Shown here: piece by piece, positions 43,297 to 49,804 of the stretch
Layout of the letters: each line of letters opens with the position of its first letter
How positions within the stretch are numbered: position 1 is the first letter of the stretch
Origin: Candidatus Thiothrix sulfatifontis
GTDB lineage: Bacteria; Pseudomonadota; Gammaproteobacteria; Thiotrichales; Thiotrichaceae
Reading direction: 5' to 3'
Assembly: GCA_022828425.1 (NCBI GenBank)
Contig: CP094685.1
Span: 186,001 to 250,000, forward strand
Length of the DNA: 64,000 nucleotides
Translations under genes and position numbers: made by a program
Notes under the pieces: model-generated
What the model was told of the DNA's origin: nothing
Database searches by the model: none
The model's input: the letters and a program-made list of their open reading frames with translations, nothing else

Positions 43297-43983
43297 CTAA
43301 AGTTCGAGTTTGTAACCCACGCCATAGATGGATTTGATGAGCTCTCGTTCCGGCATCACGTTCTGAAGCTTACGCCGCAAGTTCTTTATGTGGCTATCCA
43401 CGGCGCGATCTGTCACCGCGCGGCGATCGTCGTACAAGCGATCCAGCAATTGCGCCCGTGAATAGACTCTAGCAGGGTTGGCAAGCAGATATTCCAATAG
43501 ACGGAATTCCACTGGAGTCAACTCCAGTTTATGCCCACTGAGGCTGGCTTCCATGCGTTCGCTGTTGATTTCAATGCCGCATCTGGCTGCTGGTTCCGCT
43601 AAAGGGCGAGCCATGCGTCGCAGCAGATTTTTTACCCGTACTACCAATTCACGGGGGCTATAGGGTTTGCAGACATAATCATCGGCCCCCAATTCCAAGC
43701 CCAACAAGCGTTGAATTTCATCCACTCGCGCGGTTGCCATGATTACCGGCGTATCGGCAAACGTGCGTAGTTCGCGGAAAATGTCGATGCCATCGCGCTC
43801 CGGCAGCATGAGATCCAGAATAATTAAATCAGGGGAATGTTCACGCACCCACGGGATAACAGCCAAACCGCGCTCTAAGCAGTGTGAACGTAACCCCATC
43901 TGCGCTAGGTATTCGCTCACTACTTGTGCCAGCTTGGGCTCGTCTTCGACAATCAAAATGCATTTGGCTTCAGAATCGGTCAT
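43297..43983 (-). CDS. OmpR-family response regulator (BaeR-like)
   Basis: A 228-residue two-component regulator. The receiver domain carries the acidic pair in ILIVEDEPKLAQVVSEYL, the phosphate-accepting aspartate in LIILDLMLPERDGIDIF, and the lysine in VCKPYSPRELVVRVKNLL. The winged-helix output domain contains LELTPVEFRLLEYLLANPAR, DRAVDSHIKNLRRKLQ and SIYGVGYKLEL. Sequence flavour is that of BaeR. ATG 43983 was chosen (MTDSEAKCILIVEDE); the open frame upstream is unlike any receiver. Its likely kinase, the product of 47161-48600, is on the same strand but separated by four genes on the opposite strand. Confidence 0.93.
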   Translation of the reverse strand: MTDSEAKCILIVEDEPKLAQVVSEYLAQMGLRSHCLERGLAVIPWVREHSPDLIILDLMLPERDGIDIFRELRTFADTPVIMATARVDEIQRLLGLELGADDYVCKPYSPRELVVRVKNLLRRMARPLAEPAARCGIEINSERMEASLSGHKLELTPVEFRLLEYLLANPARVYSRAQLLDRLYDDRRAVTDRAVDSHIKNLRRKLQNVMPERELIKSIYGVGYKLEL

Positions 43984-44122
43984 GACTAATTTCCGGGTTA
44001 TCTTGAGCAAAGAGTAGCGGAAATCCCAACCGAAGCAAAAAACTTTCATTTCTCCATTGTTCCTCCACAAAGTGATTTTAAATTAGCCACTCATGTGTTT
44101 TATTGATTTGCGAGGAACTTCT

Positions 44123-45433
44123 ATGAATGCGTTAAAAAGTCCAATCACGGTGCTGCTACTAGGGTGCGCATTAACGGCTTGTGGCGGTAGCTCTTCTACT
44201 ACGACCACAACCACGACGGATACCGCGACAGCAACAGATACCACCACAAGCACTGGCACTACCACTACGACGGGTTCATCAGCCCTAAAAGTCACCGCCA
44301 ACTACGACCAAGTGGTTTCAGAAGGCACCAACGTCACGCTCATTGCCACGGCTTCTGATAGCAGCGCCACTTATGCTTGGACACAAACAGCAGGTTCTGC
44401 CGTAACCTTGGGCAATACCAACACCTCAACCCTCAGTTTTGCAGCACCCAGCGTGACTGCCACCACGACACTGCGCTTCAAAGTTACCGCCAGTACTGCG
44501 AGTGCCAACAGTTCAACCGAGGTAAGCGTGGAAGTCTGGAAACCCATCAGTACCGCTGACGCGACGGCACTGGGTGATTTCTCCAATAAATCCGGTTGGT
44601 CATGCACCGAAGACCTGCGTAATACCGGCTATACCTCGACTGTTACCACCAGCACCTCAACCGATAAAATCACTTACAGCATTAATGCGATCCCTGCCCT
44701 TGCGGTTGGGACGTTCCCCAATGCAGGCAACCCTAACAGCATTACTCCACAAACACTGTCAGCGTCGATACCGCGTTCCCCGCAAAAACAGAGTACCCGG
44801 ACTAATGTGAAAAATTTTGGTTTCACCTTGGATGGCGTCACATTCGATCGTAATACTGCCGAATGTTACAACAACGAAACCGCGTGTAATTGGCGTTATG
44901 AGGCCGTCACCCCCGGCCTTGCCAGCGGCAAATTTGAGTGGAGTTGGCTGGGGACAGACTGCAATAACGGTCACGTACAGCCTACCGGCAACTACCATTA
45001 CCACGGTCTGCCGGAAGGCTTGATCAACAAACTGGGCGATACCGGCAAGAAAATGACGATGGTGGGTTATGCTGCCGATGGTTTCCCCATTTATGCCCGC
45101 TGGGGTTACAGCAATCCCATGGATACCAGCAGTGCCATCAGAAAAATCACCGGCAGTTACGAACTCAAATCCGGCACACGCCCCAGCGGACCCGGTGGTG
45201 CTTACGACGGCACGTTTATTCAAGACTGGCAATACGTAGCAGCCTCCGGCGATTTGGATGAGTGTAATGGACGCTTTGGCATTACCCCCGAATACCCAGC
45301 AGGTACTTACCATTATTATGTGACCGACGATTACCCTTACGTTGCGGACTGTGTGTATGGCACGCCAGATAGCAGCTTTACGGGCGGCGGCGCAGGTGGC
45401 CCCGGTGGTGCAGGCGGCCCACCACCCATCTAA
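44123..45433 (+). CDS. YHYH-domain lipoprotein
   Basis: A 436-residue lipoprotein: lipobox LTAC near residue 18, then an extreme Thr/Ser stretch (about 20-51) acting as a linker, an Ig-like beta domain (about 55-142: VTANYDQVVSEGTNVTLIAT), and a YHYH domain (about 190-420) with FGFTLDGVTFDRNTAECYNN, PTGNYHYHGLPEGLIN, VGYAADGFPIYARWGY, and GTYHYYVTDDYPYVADCV. The C-terminus is glycine-rich (GGGAGGPGGAGGPPPI). The YHYH family is widespread but unassigned; the conserved histidines suggest metal binding. ATG 44123 was preferred to the in-frame start at 44093 since it gives the lipoprotein signal. Confidence 0.88.
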   Translation: MNALKSPITVLLLGCALTACGGSSSTTTTTTTDTATATDTTTSTGTTTTTGSSALKVTANYDQVVSEGTNVTLIATASDSSATYAWTQTAGSAVTLGNTNTSTLSFAAPSVTATTTLRFKVTASTASANSSTEVSVEVWKPISTADATALGDFSNKSGWSCTEDLRNTGYTSTVTTSTSTDKITYSINAIPALAVGTFPNAGNPNSITPQTLSASIPRSPQKQSTRTNVKNFGFTLDGVTFDRNTAECYNNETACNWRYEAVTPGLASGKFEWSWLGTDCNNGHVQPTGNYHYHGLPEGLINKLGDTGKKMTMVGYAADGFPIYARWGYSNPMDTSSAIRKITGSYELKSGTRPSGPGGAYDGTFIQDWQYVAASGDLDECNGRFGITPEYPAGTYHYYVTDDYPYVADCVYGTPDSSFTGGGAGGPGGAGGPPPI

Positions 45434-45459
45434 TTGCCCATACCTTCAGGACACAACCC

Positions 45460-45981
45460 ATGAAAAATTTGTACAAGGTGGCGGCGACAGCCGTCGCCGG
45501 TTTATTGATGCTATCGGCAATGCCGCTGCTGGCGCACGGCGGTCATAACAACCTGATCCAGTTACGCGCTGAACCCGGTCATTTGTATCTGGAAACGCAT
45601 CTCAATGCCTCAACGTTGACAAGCTTCGATACCAATCAGGATGGAAAACTTACCCAGACCGAATTTGACCAGCAATTGCCAGCCATCAAACAGTGGTTGC
45701 AAGCGTATTTTAGTGTCAGTAACGCGGCAGGCGAACGGCTAACGCCCAACCTGTTTGATTTGCCGATTTCCGAAAGCGAGACCGGCAAGCAAGGCGAAAT
45801 TCGTATCAGTCATATACACTTGATACAACAATACGCGTGGGCTACTGCCCCTCTGTTGAAAGTAACGCTCAAGCCCTTGGAGTCAGGCAAGCAGTTGCTC
45901 CTGTTCAAGGAAGACGGTTTTTTTATGAAACCGCTGGGTGATACTCCGCTGGAACTGACGGTTAATGCTCCAGCGCAGTAA
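45460..45981 (+). CDS. Secreted EF-hand-like protein
   Basis: A 173-residue periplasmic protein: Sec signal peptide to about residue 25 (LSAMPLLAHGG, first residues of the mature part histidine-rich), then a beta-rich region. The sequence FDTNQDGKLTQTEFDQQLPA is a canonical EF-hand calcium loop (D-x-N-x-D-G-x-L-x-x-x-E). No catalytic signature recognised. It is 26 bases after the YHYH gene and 37 bases before hupE, so the four genes 44123-47155 look like one operon. A calcium- or metal-binding role is inferred from the EF-hand. Confidence 0.75.
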   Translation: MKNLYKVAATAVAGLLMLSAMPLLAHGGHNNLIQLRAEPGHLYLETHLNASTLTSFDTNQDGKLTQTEFDQQLPAIKQWLQAYFSVSNAAGERLTPNLFDLPISESETGKQGEIRISHIHLIQQYAWATAPLLKVTLKPLESGKQLLLFKEDGFFMKPLGDTPLELTVNAPAQ

Positions 45982-46018
45982 GGTATAATCCTGTCATTAG
46001 CACACCGAGGAACCATCC

Positions 46019-46612
46019 ATGAGTTTAGTCAAACAACGTTTTAGCCTTGCCTTATTGCTCTTGGTGATAACCGGCAACGCATGGGCTCATGCTGACGCAA
46101 TGGGCATGAGTGGTGGTTTTTTTAGTGGCTTTACCCATCCTCTTTTCGGTTGGGATCACGTCGCTGCTATGGTAGCCGTTGGCTTATGGGGTGCATTTCT
46201 AGGCAGACCCGCGCTTTGGATACTGCCGGTGGTATTCCCCGTCGTCATGGCGGGCGGCGGCGTCTTGGGTATTATCGGCATTCCCATTCCTGGGGTTGAA
46301 ATCGGCATTGCCCTGTCAGCATTGGTGCTAGGGTTGATGGTGCTGTTCGCGGTGCGCCCGCCATTACTGGTAACGGCGGTTTTGGTGGGTACCTTTGCCA
46401 TTTTTCACGGTCATGCACACGGCACTGAATTACCGGATGCCGCGAATCCTCTGGCGTACAGCCTTGGATTTGTTATCGCCACCGGACTGTTACACCTCTC
46501 AGGGATTGCACTGGGTGAACTGACCCGCTGGTCGTGGGGAGGTAACGCAGTGCGTGCGGGTGGCGCAGTCATCAGTTTGGCTGGCGTGGGTTTTTTGACT
46601 GGACTGCTGTAG
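46019..46612 (+). CDS. hupE: HupE/UreJ-family metal transporter
   Basis: A 197-residue membrane protein with a signal peptide-like first helix (NAWAHADAM, mature N-terminus with histidines), followed by six hydrophobic segments. The HupE/UreJ signature H-P-x-x-G-x-D-H is seen in FTHPLFGWDHVAAMVAVG, and FAIFHGHAHGTELPDAANPL is the second conserved block. These proteins take up nickel or cobalt for hydrogenases and ureases, but similar genes occur beside copper and other metal genes. A perfect TATAAT lies at 45984-45989, ahead of ATG 46019, though with only a weak -35, and the ribosome-binding site is CGAGGA. Confidence 0.88.
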   Translation: MSLVKQRFSLALLLLVITGNAWAHADAMGMSGGFFSGFTHPLFGWDHVAAMVAVGLWGAFLGRPALWILPVVFPVVMAGGGVLGIIGIPIPGVEIGIALSALVLGLMVLFAVRPPLLVTAVLVGTFAIFHGHAHGTELPDAANPLAYSLGFVIATGLLHLSGIALGELTRWSWGGNAVRAGGAVISLAGVGFLTGLL

Positions 46613-46621
46613 ATCAACCTG

Positions 46622-47155
46622 ATGCATATTTCTTTTTTCTGGTATGGATTCATTCAACCTTGGCAAGCACCAACGCAAGCCCTCGCTTTCATCGGCTTGG
46701 GCTTGTTGTTAGGGCAACAAGGCAAACAAGCGTTACGCTTCGGGATCGGCGCATTTTTTCTGAGCATCAGCTTGGGGCTGTTACTGACCCGCTGGGTAAT
46801 ACTGGCTGGGGAATGGGAAATACCGTTGCTTGCCGTGGCGGGTTTGATGGGGGTTTTACTGGCATTGCGCCTCGCTGTTCCGCTATGCATCGTCACTTTT
46901 TGCGCCGGTACGCTGGGGCTGTTGGCTAGTGCAGCGTTAGCACCCAATCTGATGTTAGGGTCGCAAGCGTTTATCATCAAGAATGCTACATTCGGGGTTA
47001 TCGTCAGTGCCACGCTCACTGTATTGCTGAGTGCGGCGGTGGCGAGCTATTTGCGCATTCGCTGGGAAGGTTTGGTGTTGCGCGTACTCGGCTCTTGGTT
47101 AGTAGCCAGTACCTTAATGGTGTTAGCCATGTTGTTGTTTGCGCATCACCACTAA
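46622..47155 (+). CDS. HupE-associated membrane protein
   Basis: A 177-residue membrane protein with about five hydrophobic segments (starting HISFFWYGFIQPWQAPTQAL, then GIGAFFLSISLGLLL, LAVAGLMGVLLALRLAVPLC and SATLTVLLSAAVASYL) and a terminal HHH. It begins 9 bases after hupE. HupE-like proteins are sometimes encoded in two consecutive genes; this product has no HPxxGxDH motif and so is not itself a HupE but likely works with it. Family not recognised. The gene stops 5 bases before the end of the convergent histidine kinase gene. Confidence 0.75.
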   Translation: MHISFFWYGFIQPWQAPTQALAFIGLGLLLGQQGKQALRFGIGAFFLSISLGLLLTRWVILAGEWEIPLLAVAGLMGVLLALRLAVPLCIVTFCAGTLGLLASAALAPNLMLGSQAFIIKNATFGVIVSATLTVLLSAAVASYLRIRWEGLVLRVLGSWLVASTLMVLAMLLFAHHH

Positions 47156-47160
47156 GCTCA

Positions 47161-48600
47161 TTAGACCTGCTTTAGTATTGGAAACGTCACTTCAATCAGC
47201 AACCCGCCCAACGGCGAATGCGCTGCCCGAATTGTACCGCCGAGCGCTTCTACGTAATTTTTACAGATCGACAAACCCAAGCCAGAACCCCCCAAAGCCC
47301 GGCTGCGTGATTTATCCACCCGAAACAGGCGTTCAAACAAGTGGGGTAACGCCGCATCCGGCACCCCCGGCGCACTGTCCTGAATACTCACGACAACCCT
47401 GTCGTCTTGCCGCTTTGCCAGTATTTCCACCTGCCCGCTCGCATGGGTATAACGGTAACTGTTGCTCAATAGGTTGGCGAACAGTTGGTACAGACGCTCC
47501 ATATCGGCACGTATCCACAGGGGTTGCTTCCGCTCGAAACGGGTCGTCAAACGAATATGCTTTTCCTGCAAACGCGCTTCCGCACCCAAGGCGACCTCCG
47601 TGAGGACAGCAGTCAAATTCACGGGTTCACTACTCAGGGTCATTTCGGCACTGTCGGACAAAGCCAGTTGGTGCAAATCTTCCACCAGTTTTCCCATCGC
47701 CAATGTATCAACCAGCAGCGACTGGAGGCGTGCCGAAGTCGGTTCGCGAATGCCGTCTAGCAGCGCTTCGATTTCGCTACGCAAAATAGCCAGTGGGGTA
47801 CGCAACTCGTGAGAAATATCGGCAACCCACTGCTGGCGCAAGATGGCATTGCGTTGCAAGGCTTCTGCCAACGTATTGAAAGCTTGTGCCAGACGCCCTA
47901 ATTCATCCTGCGCACTAACCACAATACGAGTATCGAACTTGCCGGTGGTCAACGCTTGCGCCCCTTGAGTCAGGGAATGCACAGGGCGTAGCAGATGCCT
48001 AACCAACACCAGTGCCAGCAAAAACGATAATCCAGCCGCAAACAGGGCGATTAGGTAGAGGTTGCGCAATTGCTGACTTAGAAAGGTGCCAGCCAAATCG
48101 TTGGGAATCCTACCGCCTTGGCGCACACTTAGCCAACCCACAACCTTACCGGAAGCATGGATGGCGATTGTTGTCAGGATACCTTTATCACCAGGGTGCG
48201 ATGCTACATGACTTGGATTGCCGATGATCAGTTGTTGATCGGCATCCAGCAAGTTCAGGCGCACACTCAAGGGGCGTGGTGGTGGTTTTCCACGCTCCGG
48301 TGGCTTCATGCGGGTGAATTCGGAGCTAGGTGGTGGCGGGGGTGGAAATTCGCCAATACTTGCCAGTAATTGACCCCATTGCTGAGGCGTATCACGGATG
48401 AAATCCCAATTGCGATGGGCTGCGAATTCTTGACTCAACTTACCCGCCAATTCCTGCACCTTATTCAATTCTTCAGCATTATGGTAGTTTGCAAAACCGT
48501 TACGGAAACTCCAGTTCATGAAAACCACCATCACCAACACGACCACAATGGTCGCGAGTAACATCGCTAAAAATAGTTTAGAGAAAATATTCAGCCGCAT
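47161..48600 (-). CDS. Sensor histidine kinase (BaeS-like)
   Basis: A 479-residue two-component kinase: N-terminal helix (about 7-30), a periplasmic sensor domain (about 30-170) rich in proline around EFPPPPPPSSEF, a second helix (about 175-200), HAMP linker, the H-box VADISHELRTPLAILRSEIE, the N-box LLSNSYRYTHAS and G-boxes DSAPGVPDAALPHLFERLFR and SGLGLSICKNYVEALGG. ATG 48600 gives MRLNIFSKLFLAMLL with a GGAGG about 10 bases upstream. The nearest orphan regulator is the OmpR-type gene at 43297-43983 on the same strand. Signal unknown. Confidence 0.93.
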   Translation of the reverse strand: MRLNIFSKLFLAMLLATIVVVLVMVVFMNWSFRNGFANYHNAEELNKVQELAGKLSQEFAAHRNWDFIRDTPQQWGQLLASIGEFPPPPPPSSEFTRMKPPERGKPPPRPLSVRLNLLDADQQLIIGNPSHVASHPGDKGILTTIAIHASGKVVGWLSVRQGGRIPNDLAGTFLSQQLRNLYLIALFAAGLSFLLALVLVRHLLRPVHSLTQGAQALTTGKFDTRIVVSAQDELGRLAQAFNTLAEALQRNAILRQQWVADISHELRTPLAILRSEIEALLDGIREPTSARLQSLLVDTLAMGKLVEDLHQLALSDSAEMTLSSEPVNLTAVLTEVALGAEARLQEKHIRLTTRFERKQPLWIRADMERLYQLFANLLSNSYRYTHASGQVEILAKRQDDRVVVSIQDSAPGVPDAALPHLFERLFRVDKSRSRALGGSGLGLSICKNYVEALGGTIRAAHSPLGGLLIEVTFPILKQV

Positions 48601-48691
48601 CGTATCAGTACCTCCAACCTGTAAAATACCGGCAGAATGGGTAACAAGTATGGAGAAAGGCAGCGTTTTTAAAATTTTAACGGATAGCCAC

Positions 48692-49804
48692 TCAATCCTT
48701 AATCCATTTATCCTGCAAGTCCTTATGAAGGCTGGCTTTGCCATCTTGGGATTCGCGCAACTGCAATAACGCACGGTTCACTTGCTCACGTAGCGGGCTA
48801 CCATCCGCAAACGCAATGCCATAGTTTTGCGGGTTAAATAACGCGGGAACCACCGCCAACACCTTCCGACCTTCCGCTTGATTCAGTTGATTGGCAAGGT
48901 ACGTTAAACGCGGCCCGTCGTGTACCAACGCATCTGCCTCGCCCTTGCGTACCCGCTCAATGCCTGCCTCAATACTGTCCACGGGTGTAACGGTGATGCC
49001 ATTTTGCTCCAACCAAGTGCGTGGCGCATCCGTTGCCACCGCCACTACCCGTTTGCCGGGTAAATCTTTCTCGGAACCGATGGCTCCACTGACGGCTTGC
49101 GCCGTCAATGCACTGGTCACAACAGCCGTGAGAATGCTCAACAAAATCAAACCCATCAAGTGCCACGTCAAATCAATGACCCGCGCTAAACCACGGCTAT
49201 GCGGTGTTTCCCAGGTCAACAACATGGTTATCCCCCACCACAGTGCTTCACGAATACCGGGAACATAACCACGCGGAAAAGCAGGCTCAGCCGTTTGATA
49301 ACGATCCGCCCACAAGCGCAAGTTTGCCGTGATAAACAGGATCAACAAGAAAAACAACGCCGCTTGCCAAGAAAACAAGCGCCCCAATTCACGCAACATA
49401 ATGCCAAACGGGTTCGATTGCTGAAATTCGGGAGCAACCATGATTTGCAGCCCCAACTCATACATGGAGTTGGAAAAATCCACCGAGGCTTCGCGCTGTG
49501 CTGTCACCGTAATGGCAGAAATCGCCGCATCCACCTTGCTATCAGCCGCCGCCGTGACCAAATCTTTGGTCGTATCAAAGTAAACCCACTCGGTTTGCAC
49601 ACCGAGTTTATCGGCTAACGCCTTCCACAAATCAATGCTAAATCCGGTCGGCTGGCGCTGCTCCTCCGCCACATTGGGGTCATACATAACCCACGGTTCA
49701 GACAATTTAACGCCGATCTTTAGCGTGTCATCCGCACTGGCAGACGGTAGCCAGCAAAGGAGCGCAAACAGCAATAAGTAAACGTAGTGTAATCGTTGTT
49801 GCAT
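48692..49804 (-). CDS. Glutamate-receptor-like ligand-gated channel (GluR0-type) protein
   Basis: A 370-residue protein with a Sec signal (cut near SASAD, about 24), a periplasmic substrate-binding lobe (about 25-125: LKIGVKLSEPWVMYD, SVDFSNSMYELGLQIMV), a membrane section of a helix at 143-162, a re-entrant pore-helix-like segment at 183-198 and a helix at 207-232, and the second lobe (about 245-370, with ALVHDGPRLTYLANQLNQ). This is the architecture of prokaryotic ionotropic glutamate receptors. The selectivity-filter place reads LTWETPHSRG and not the potassium-type TVGYG, so ion selectivity is open. Alternatively an orphan solute-binding protein with a membrane anchor. No transporter subunits are near. 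Confidence 0.8.
   Translation of the reverse strand: MQQRLHYVYLLLFALLCWLPSASADDTLKIGVKLSEPWVMYDPNVAEEQRQPTGFSIDLWKALADKLGVQTEWVYFDTTKDLVTAAADSKVDAAISAITVTAQREASVDFSNSMYELGLQIMVAPEFQQSNPFGIMLRELGRLFSWQAALFFLLILFITANLRLWADRYQTAEPAFPRGYVPGIREALWWGITMLLTWETPHSRGLARVIDLTWHLMGLILLSILTAVVTSALTAQAVSGAIGSEKDLPGKRVVAVATDAPRTWLEQNGITVTPVDSIEAGIERVRKGEADALVHDGPRLTYLANQLNQAEGRKVLAVVPALFNPQNYGIAFADGSPLREQVNRALLQLRESQDGKASLHKDLQDKWIKD

Follow-up and report, generated by a model that had tools for sequence, protein, structure and literature searches.

YHYH proteins (PF14240) are present in many bacterial phyla and in phages, and we found no tested function for them in the literature; jumbo-phage YHYH domains are predicted to be zinc-dependent tail hydrolases (PMC7824862). 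Anglerases are periplasmic domains that have a histidine at the mature N terminus, bind copper and nickel, and are fused to HupE/UreJ-2 permeases; Ang-1 binds copper most tightly (PMC12537917). In E. coli, copper clusters the sensor kinase BaeS via periplasmic histidines (PMC4780735). Here we describe a locus that brings together relatives of these proteins in a 64,000-nucleotide stretch of the 3.69-Mb genome of Candidatus Thiothrix sulfatifontis (contig CP094685.1, positions 186,001 to 250,000; hereafter the window), whose nearest named relative is T. fructosivorans. Minus-strand genes for a BaeR-like response regulator and a BaeS-like histidine kinase enclose a four-gene plus-strand operon for a YHYH lipoprotein, a secreted EF-hand protein, a HupE/UreJ permease, and a further membrane protein, the product of gene 4 (Table 1). 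An earlier note on this DNA had described a split two-component pair around a YHYH / EF-hand / HupE operon, and we verified all six genes in that order and on those strands. We determined gene order, promoter sharing, fold, and genomic pairing computationally. We believe, with a probability of about 0.58, that the BaeSR-like system switches on periplasmic capture of a divalent metal, and that the pair was split by the operon it regulates.

Results

The kinase and YHYH promoters share a regulator box

The promoters of the kinase gene and of YHYH have a common architecture: CTCCAYnnTTnCYnC, a distance of 27 bp, and TAnnnT. Upstream of YHYH, the box is part of a block (44050-44089) of the regulator-YHYH intergenic region in which 2 of 40 positions distinguish the window from T. 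fructosivorans, whereas other parts of this intergenic region have changed. The start of the block, TTCTCCATnnTTCCTCC, resembles the published BaeR consensus, and the core of the box, TTTCTCCAT, is as in that consensus (TTTTTCTCCATDATTGGC; PMC3799227). The box recurs upstream of kinases, other YHYH genes, a CotH gene, and an Lcl_C-domain gene. The 27-bp spacing is common to the kinase, CotH, and YHYH promoters of relatives; TA was exactly 27 bp downstream of CTCCAT in all 16 promoters inspected, and the full TAnnnT was present in 15.

A matrix built from three kinase promoters of other genomes picked out the YHYH promoter. Among approximately 128,000 positions scored in the window, the YHYH promoter ranked first and the kinase promoter second. 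In each of four loci, the two best-scoring sites included the YHYH upstream region; column-shuffled control matrices achieved this in zero to two of the four. The result is partly circular in that the training sites were originally found by their likeness to the YHYH box.

The box was also found upstream of kinases that are not linked to YHYH. The box at 44050 is the only perfect match to the core pattern in the entire genome. In two genomes from outside the genus (G040 and G045), the kinase and regulator genes are adjacent and the genes for YHYH and the EF-hand protein are elsewhere. Genome-wide pattern searches of these two, done with the kinase positions unknown beforehand, gave perfect matches directly upstream of the orthologous kinases, far from YHYH, with the 27-bp spacing intact (-10 hexamers TATGAT and TACTAT); YHYH in these genomes also has a box. 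Two other matches (position 1303298 of G051 and 2632945 of G053) were rejected; each is inside a conserved coding gene and has GCAGCA instead of a -10 hexamer, and they serve as negative controls.

Based on the blind matches in G040 and G045 and the constant spacing to the -10 region, we conclude that the BaeSR-like pair probably controls the inserted operon. This agrees with the earlier note, which had proposed such control: the kinase and YHYH promoters have the box in common, and its distance from the -10 region is constant, not only in the window and T. fructosivorans but also in the two genomes with the pair and the operon unlinked. The recognition-helix segment of the regulators is nearly identical across the genomes compared. 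The regulator may be an activator rather than a repressor, a role that a site just upstream of the -10 hexamer in its own kinase promoter would suit.

The pair is BaeSR-like and its genes are adjacent in other genomes

The closest NCBIfam models for the two proteins are those of E. coli BaeSR. Both fall under the curated cut-offs (for the regulator, PRK10710 BaeR, 302 bits and a cut-off of 380; for the kinase, a cut-off of 500), and the pair further differs from BaeSR in that its genes are split and that the adjacent target is unlike mdtABC and spy. From sequence comparison, the regulator probably starts at 43983 (MTDSEAK...) and not at 44070.

Of 16 Thiothrix genomes, 6 have an orthologous kinase (56-83% identity), among them all four with YHYH; the lack of co-occurrence that would have counted against the proposal in the earlier note is thus not seen. 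The kinase and regulator genes are adjacent and on the same strand in G058 and G059, neither of which has YHYH, and divergent in G052 and G053. Because the pair is adjacent outside the genus (G040 and G045), these arrangements suggest that the split is derived, through insertion of the operon.

There were other cases in which BaeSR-like genes and YHYH are linked. In L043 (4111-9155) and L213 (3210-8131), from two families, genes for a regulator, a kinase, a protein with an N-terminal histidine (N-His), and a PEBP-YHYH fusion are on one strand, so that a BaeSR-like pair is linked to YHYH a second time. Genes for BaeS-like kinases directly adjoin YHYH in metagenome-assembled genomes of Hyphomicrobiales (L122:3230-7171) and Moraxellaceae (L047:5204-8714). 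Within the set of YHYH loci, the association of two-component systems with N-His/HupE loci was not significant (p = 0.09). CotH-kinase genes are near YHYH or a BaeSR-like pair in relatives (L260:11024-12616, L040:6333-7811, and L034), and one of them has the promoter box.

The EF-hand protein is predicted to have an anglerase fold

The signal peptide of the EF-hand protein is predicted, by a sequence heuristic, to end between PLLA and HGGH, which would leave a histidine at the mature N terminus. We predicted a match to anglerases from this histidine before the fold search. An AlphaFold2 model made from an alignment of 13 proteins (predicted local distance difference test score of 88, predicted template modeling score of 0.80) is an Ig-like beta-sandwich with helices between strands 2 and 3. 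In a Foldseek search of 350,542 PDB chains, the best match was 9GCE, the copper anglerase Ang-1 with copper (E 4e-6); next came two zinc proteins, PA4063 and ZrgA, with zinc. The VIA Z was 9.5 over 138 residues for 9GCE and 8.1-9.6 for PA4063 and ZrgA, with about 8-20% identity to the latter two in structural alignments. PA4063 and ZrgA differ from the protein in the window in that they belong to the zinc-acquisition systems of Pseudomonas and Vibrio (PMC8561739, PMC9820375).

The EF-hand protein shares with Ang-1 (RbAng-1a) the predicted histidine after the signal peptide and the sandwich with helices between strands 2 and 3. In contrast to Ang-1, it stands alone, is encoded behind a YHYH gene, and has a canonical 12-residue EF-hand loop (DxNxDGKLTxxE). 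Ang-1 is fused to its HupE/UreJ-2 permease (PF13795), whereas the partner permease in the window is the product of the separate next gene and belongs to PF04955. Judging from the modeled fold, the EF-hand protein is a predicted stand-alone, EF-hand variant of the domain known as a fusion to HupE/UreJ-2.

The EF-hand protein alone matched no Pfam family over the cut-off (E 0.005 to 0.04), and searches of PDB sequences with this protein or with Ang-type N-domains gave only chance or EF-hand matches. The family profile matched EF-hand calcium sensors in the PDB (E 6e-8), and none of the 13 aligned proteins departs from His1 or from Asp32 and Glu43 of the EF loop. A profile comparison relates two subgroups of the family, whose N termini are HGGHN... 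and HLMVAQHGTLN..., to each other (E 2.7e-6, probability 88%).

The YHYH lipoprotein has a full-length YHYH domain

The protein in the window has a lipobox, a Thr-rich linker, a PKD-like domain that matches 2yhg, and the YHYH domain. As in other members of PF14240, the domain is full length and has the family motif (NYHYHG). Unlike the family, the protein is a lipoprotein with a PKD-like domain, and it has Leu193 (codon CTT, 44699-44701) at a near-invariant histidine, which is present in 55 of 57 aligned proteins, including that of T. fructosivorans; the histidine is a position noted as conserved in this alignment and is not among the curated features that define the family. Three histidines and several aspartates are invariant in the 57 proteins, consistent with the zinc-hydrolase prediction for phages. 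A model of the YHYH protein had no Foldseek match below E 2 in the PDB and none with a VIA Z of at least 2, which does not show that the fold is new. In other genomes, YHYH genes also neighbor CotH and sulfatase genes.

YHYH genes are paired with N-His proteins

In Thiotrichaceae, the N-His/EF family was confined to genomes that have YHYH. Of the 63 genomes compared from the order, YHYH is present in 13 and an N-His/EF gene in 11, and every one of the 11 also has YHYH (hypergeometric p = 1e-10). The N-His/EF gene directly adjoins YHYH in 10 of the 11. In the exception, G029, an HLMVAQ-type gene is alone; elsewhere in this genome (L043), a BaeSR-like pair and a PEBP-YHYH gene accompany the gene for another N-His protein, a four-gene set that is repeated in L213.

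We then considered 109 YHYH loci from many phyla, which are phylogenetically non-independent, using our own heuristic rule for signal peptides. An N-terminal histidine was predicted in 16 of 55 secreted same-strand neighbors of YHYH, compared to 9 of 221 proteins encoded three or more genes away (p = 4e-7). HupE-like genes made up 5 of 106 neighbors and 1 of 742 background genes (p = 1.5e-4). YHYH is directly beside an N-His HupE_UreJ_2 gene in Acidobacteriota (L048), Abditibacteriota (L105), a betaproteobacterium (L106), and a gammaproteobacterial genus (L164 and L166); in the betaproteobacterium, an HLMxAQxGTLN domain is fused to HupE_UreJ_2 (PF13795, 106 bits). Most YHYH genes elsewhere (Verrucomicrobia, Planctomycetes) lack a partner of this kind.

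HupE and gene 4 are conserved as a pair of their own

HupE in the window is the only match to PF04955 over the cut-off in the genome. Its hidden Markov model match and its HX5DH and FHGxxHGxE motifs are those of nickel/cobalt permeases; it differs from these in being paired with a motif-less paralog and an anglerase-fold protein, with no hydrogenase genes adjacent. Gene 4 encodes that paralog, a diverged relative of HupE_UreJ that lacks both motifs and has a homolog over the cut-off (28.7 bits). In Thiotrichaceae the two genes are conserved together; a gene for a DUF1007 protein usually comes next, and YHYH is not nearby. Homologs of gene 4 were found in 44 of the 63 genomes, and those inspected mostly adjoin HupE and DUF1007 genes. 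In T. fructosivorans, YHYH and the EF-hand gene are between the same kinase and regulator without HupE and gene 4, and there is no homolog of gene 4 anywhere in that genome. The presence of HupE does not track that of hydrogenase in Thiothrix, in which all 16 genomes have a NiFe hydrogenase. The triplet of HupE, motif-less paralog, and DUF1007-like protein is conserved in Thiotrichaceae at L251-L257, L262, and L263, and in some of the DUF1007-like proteins a histidine comes first after the signal peptide.

Other features of the locus

The coordinates of the features are collected in Table 1. The operon ends 5 bp from the end of the convergent kinase gene (47155-47161), where we found no terminator-like stem; antisense read-through from the operon into the kinase gene is possible. 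A scan for promoter and terminator consensus sequences and an Rfam search gave nothing useful. Directly upstream of the kinase gene (48692-49804, minus strand) is a gene for a solute-binding family 3 protein split by a Lig_chan-type transmembrane segment, a product that resembles a bacterial ionotropic glutamate receptor.

Table 1. Positions in the window of the genes and promoter elements of the locus
Feature	Position	Strand	Basis or detail
OmpR-family response regulator, BaeR-like	43297..43983	-	PF00072 and PF00486; start by homology to T. fructosivorans
Regulator box TTCTCCATTGTTCCTCC, within block 44050-44089	44050..44066	+	Conserved relative to L032; matrix and pattern searches
-10 hexamer TAAATT	44079..44084	+	27 bp after start of CTCCAT
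YHYH lipoprotein	44123..45433	+	PF14240, 237 bits (cut-off 25); YHYH domain 44762-45361
Secreted stand-alone protein, predicted anglerase fold	45460..45981	+	Signal peptide 45460-45534 (predicted), His1 45535, EF loop 45628-45663
HupE/UreJ permease	46019..46612	+	PF04955, 186 bits; HPLFGWDH and FHGHAHGTE motifs
Diverged HupE_UreJ-like membrane protein without metal motifs (gene 4)	46622..47155	+	14 bits
BaeS-like sensor histidine kinase	47161..48600	-	HAMP/HisKA/HATPase; NCBIfam BaeS_SmeS, 399 bits
Regulator box in kinase promoter, TTCTCCATACTTGTTAC	48641..48657	-	-10 TATTTT at 48623-48628

Discussion

We propose that the kinase would respond to a cue from the envelope or from a metal by activating the regulator, which would bind the tandem box that immediately precedes the -10 hexamer of both the kinase gene and the YHYH operon. 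The operon would place the YHYH lipoprotein on the envelope and the soluble, EF-hand-bearing anglerase-fold protein in the periplasm, where His1 of the latter may capture a divalent transition metal (of the nickel, copper, or zinc class). In the species of the window, captured metal would pass to the HupE permease and its motif-less partner. We infer this hand-over and the direction of transport, as well as the metal binding, the activation, and any chemistry of YHYH, from the results above.

Several results weigh against this proposal. The kinase promoter sites were first picked by their likeness to the YHYH box, an unguided search for 17-mer motifs in kinase promoters led to the -10 region and did not rediscover the box, and the plain E. 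coli BaeR consensus ranked the YHYH site only about 40th in the 64 kb. Profile comparisons (hhalign, with small alignments) between the EF family and the N-domains of Ang-type HupE proteins were not significant (probability <1%); it is fold, N-terminal histidine, and context that relate the family to anglerases. In T. fructosivorans, G040, and G045, YHYH and the EF-hand protein occur with no adjacent HupE, and hand-over to HupE therefore cannot be the core function. Co-occurrence of YHYH and HupE_UreJ_2 at the level of genomes was not above expectation (5 of 21 versus 103 of 370). The earlier note had taken HupE as a partner within the operon; it is present there in the window, but it belongs to a separate conserved pair, and is missing from the T. 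fructosivorans locus, and HupE_UreJ_2 is not enriched in genomes with YHYH. The note had also held both the YHYH and EF-hand proteins to be periplasmic metal binders. The fold supports this for the EF-hand protein, whereas YHYH, whose model matched nothing in the PDB, shows only a genomic association.

These points bear on other explanations of the locus. The BaeSR-like system might sense excess copper or zinc and induce sequestration by YHYH and the N-His/EF protein, as a buffer against metal stress, with HupE and its partner as recent passengers. The absence of HupE and gene 4 from the T. fructosivorans locus (and of gene 4 from that genome), their clustering with DUF1007 elsewhere, and the YHYH-EF core pair alone in G040 and G045 all fit this explanation, as do the response of E. 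coli BaeS to copper (PMC4780735) and the preference of Ang-1 for copper (PMC12537917). We consider it possible but on balance unlikely: YHYH is beside N-His HupE_UreJ_2 in several phyla, pointing to uptake as a recurring partner function, and we recognized no copper or zinc resistance gene beside the cassette in a search that was not exhaustive. YHYH could instead be a metal-dependent envelope hydrolase to which the EF/N-His protein delivers metal, or whose metal it protects, with the kinase sensing envelope stress and metal transport being incidental. We think this quite unlikely, despite the prediction for jumbo-phage YHYH (PMC7824862), the invariant histidines and aspartates, and the CotH and sulfatase neighbors, given the leucine at position 193 in the window and a model that has no fold match to known hydrolases (which is not evidence of absence).

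It is very improbable that the operon landed between the kinase and regulator genes by chance, with no regulatory link. The same kinase and regulator do occur without YHYH in G058 and G059, but the promoter architecture is shared even where the genes are unlinked (G040 and G045), and the box block was kept in T. fructosivorans while other stretches of the intergenic region changed. We also regard as unlikely a more elaborate version of our proposal, in which the YHYH lipoprotein and the stand-alone EF-hand anglerase would together make up a new machine for metal capture in the envelope, each half being obligate and the whole controlled by a BaeSR-like system, calcium at the EF hand would gate capture or release of the transition metal, and HupE-type permeases would be an exchangeable import module.

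Based on the pairing, fold, and promoter results, we conclude that YHYH is probably a new associated component of the known anglerase/HupE type of metal capture. With this locus, the anglerases, known as domains fused to permeases, would also include free-standing proteins that bear an EF hand. YHYH now has a partner whose fold can be recognized, permeases as partners in several phyla, and a regulator, as yet predicted, for which the DNA box is defined; with these, the YHYH family gains a first testable role, in periplasmic metal handling.

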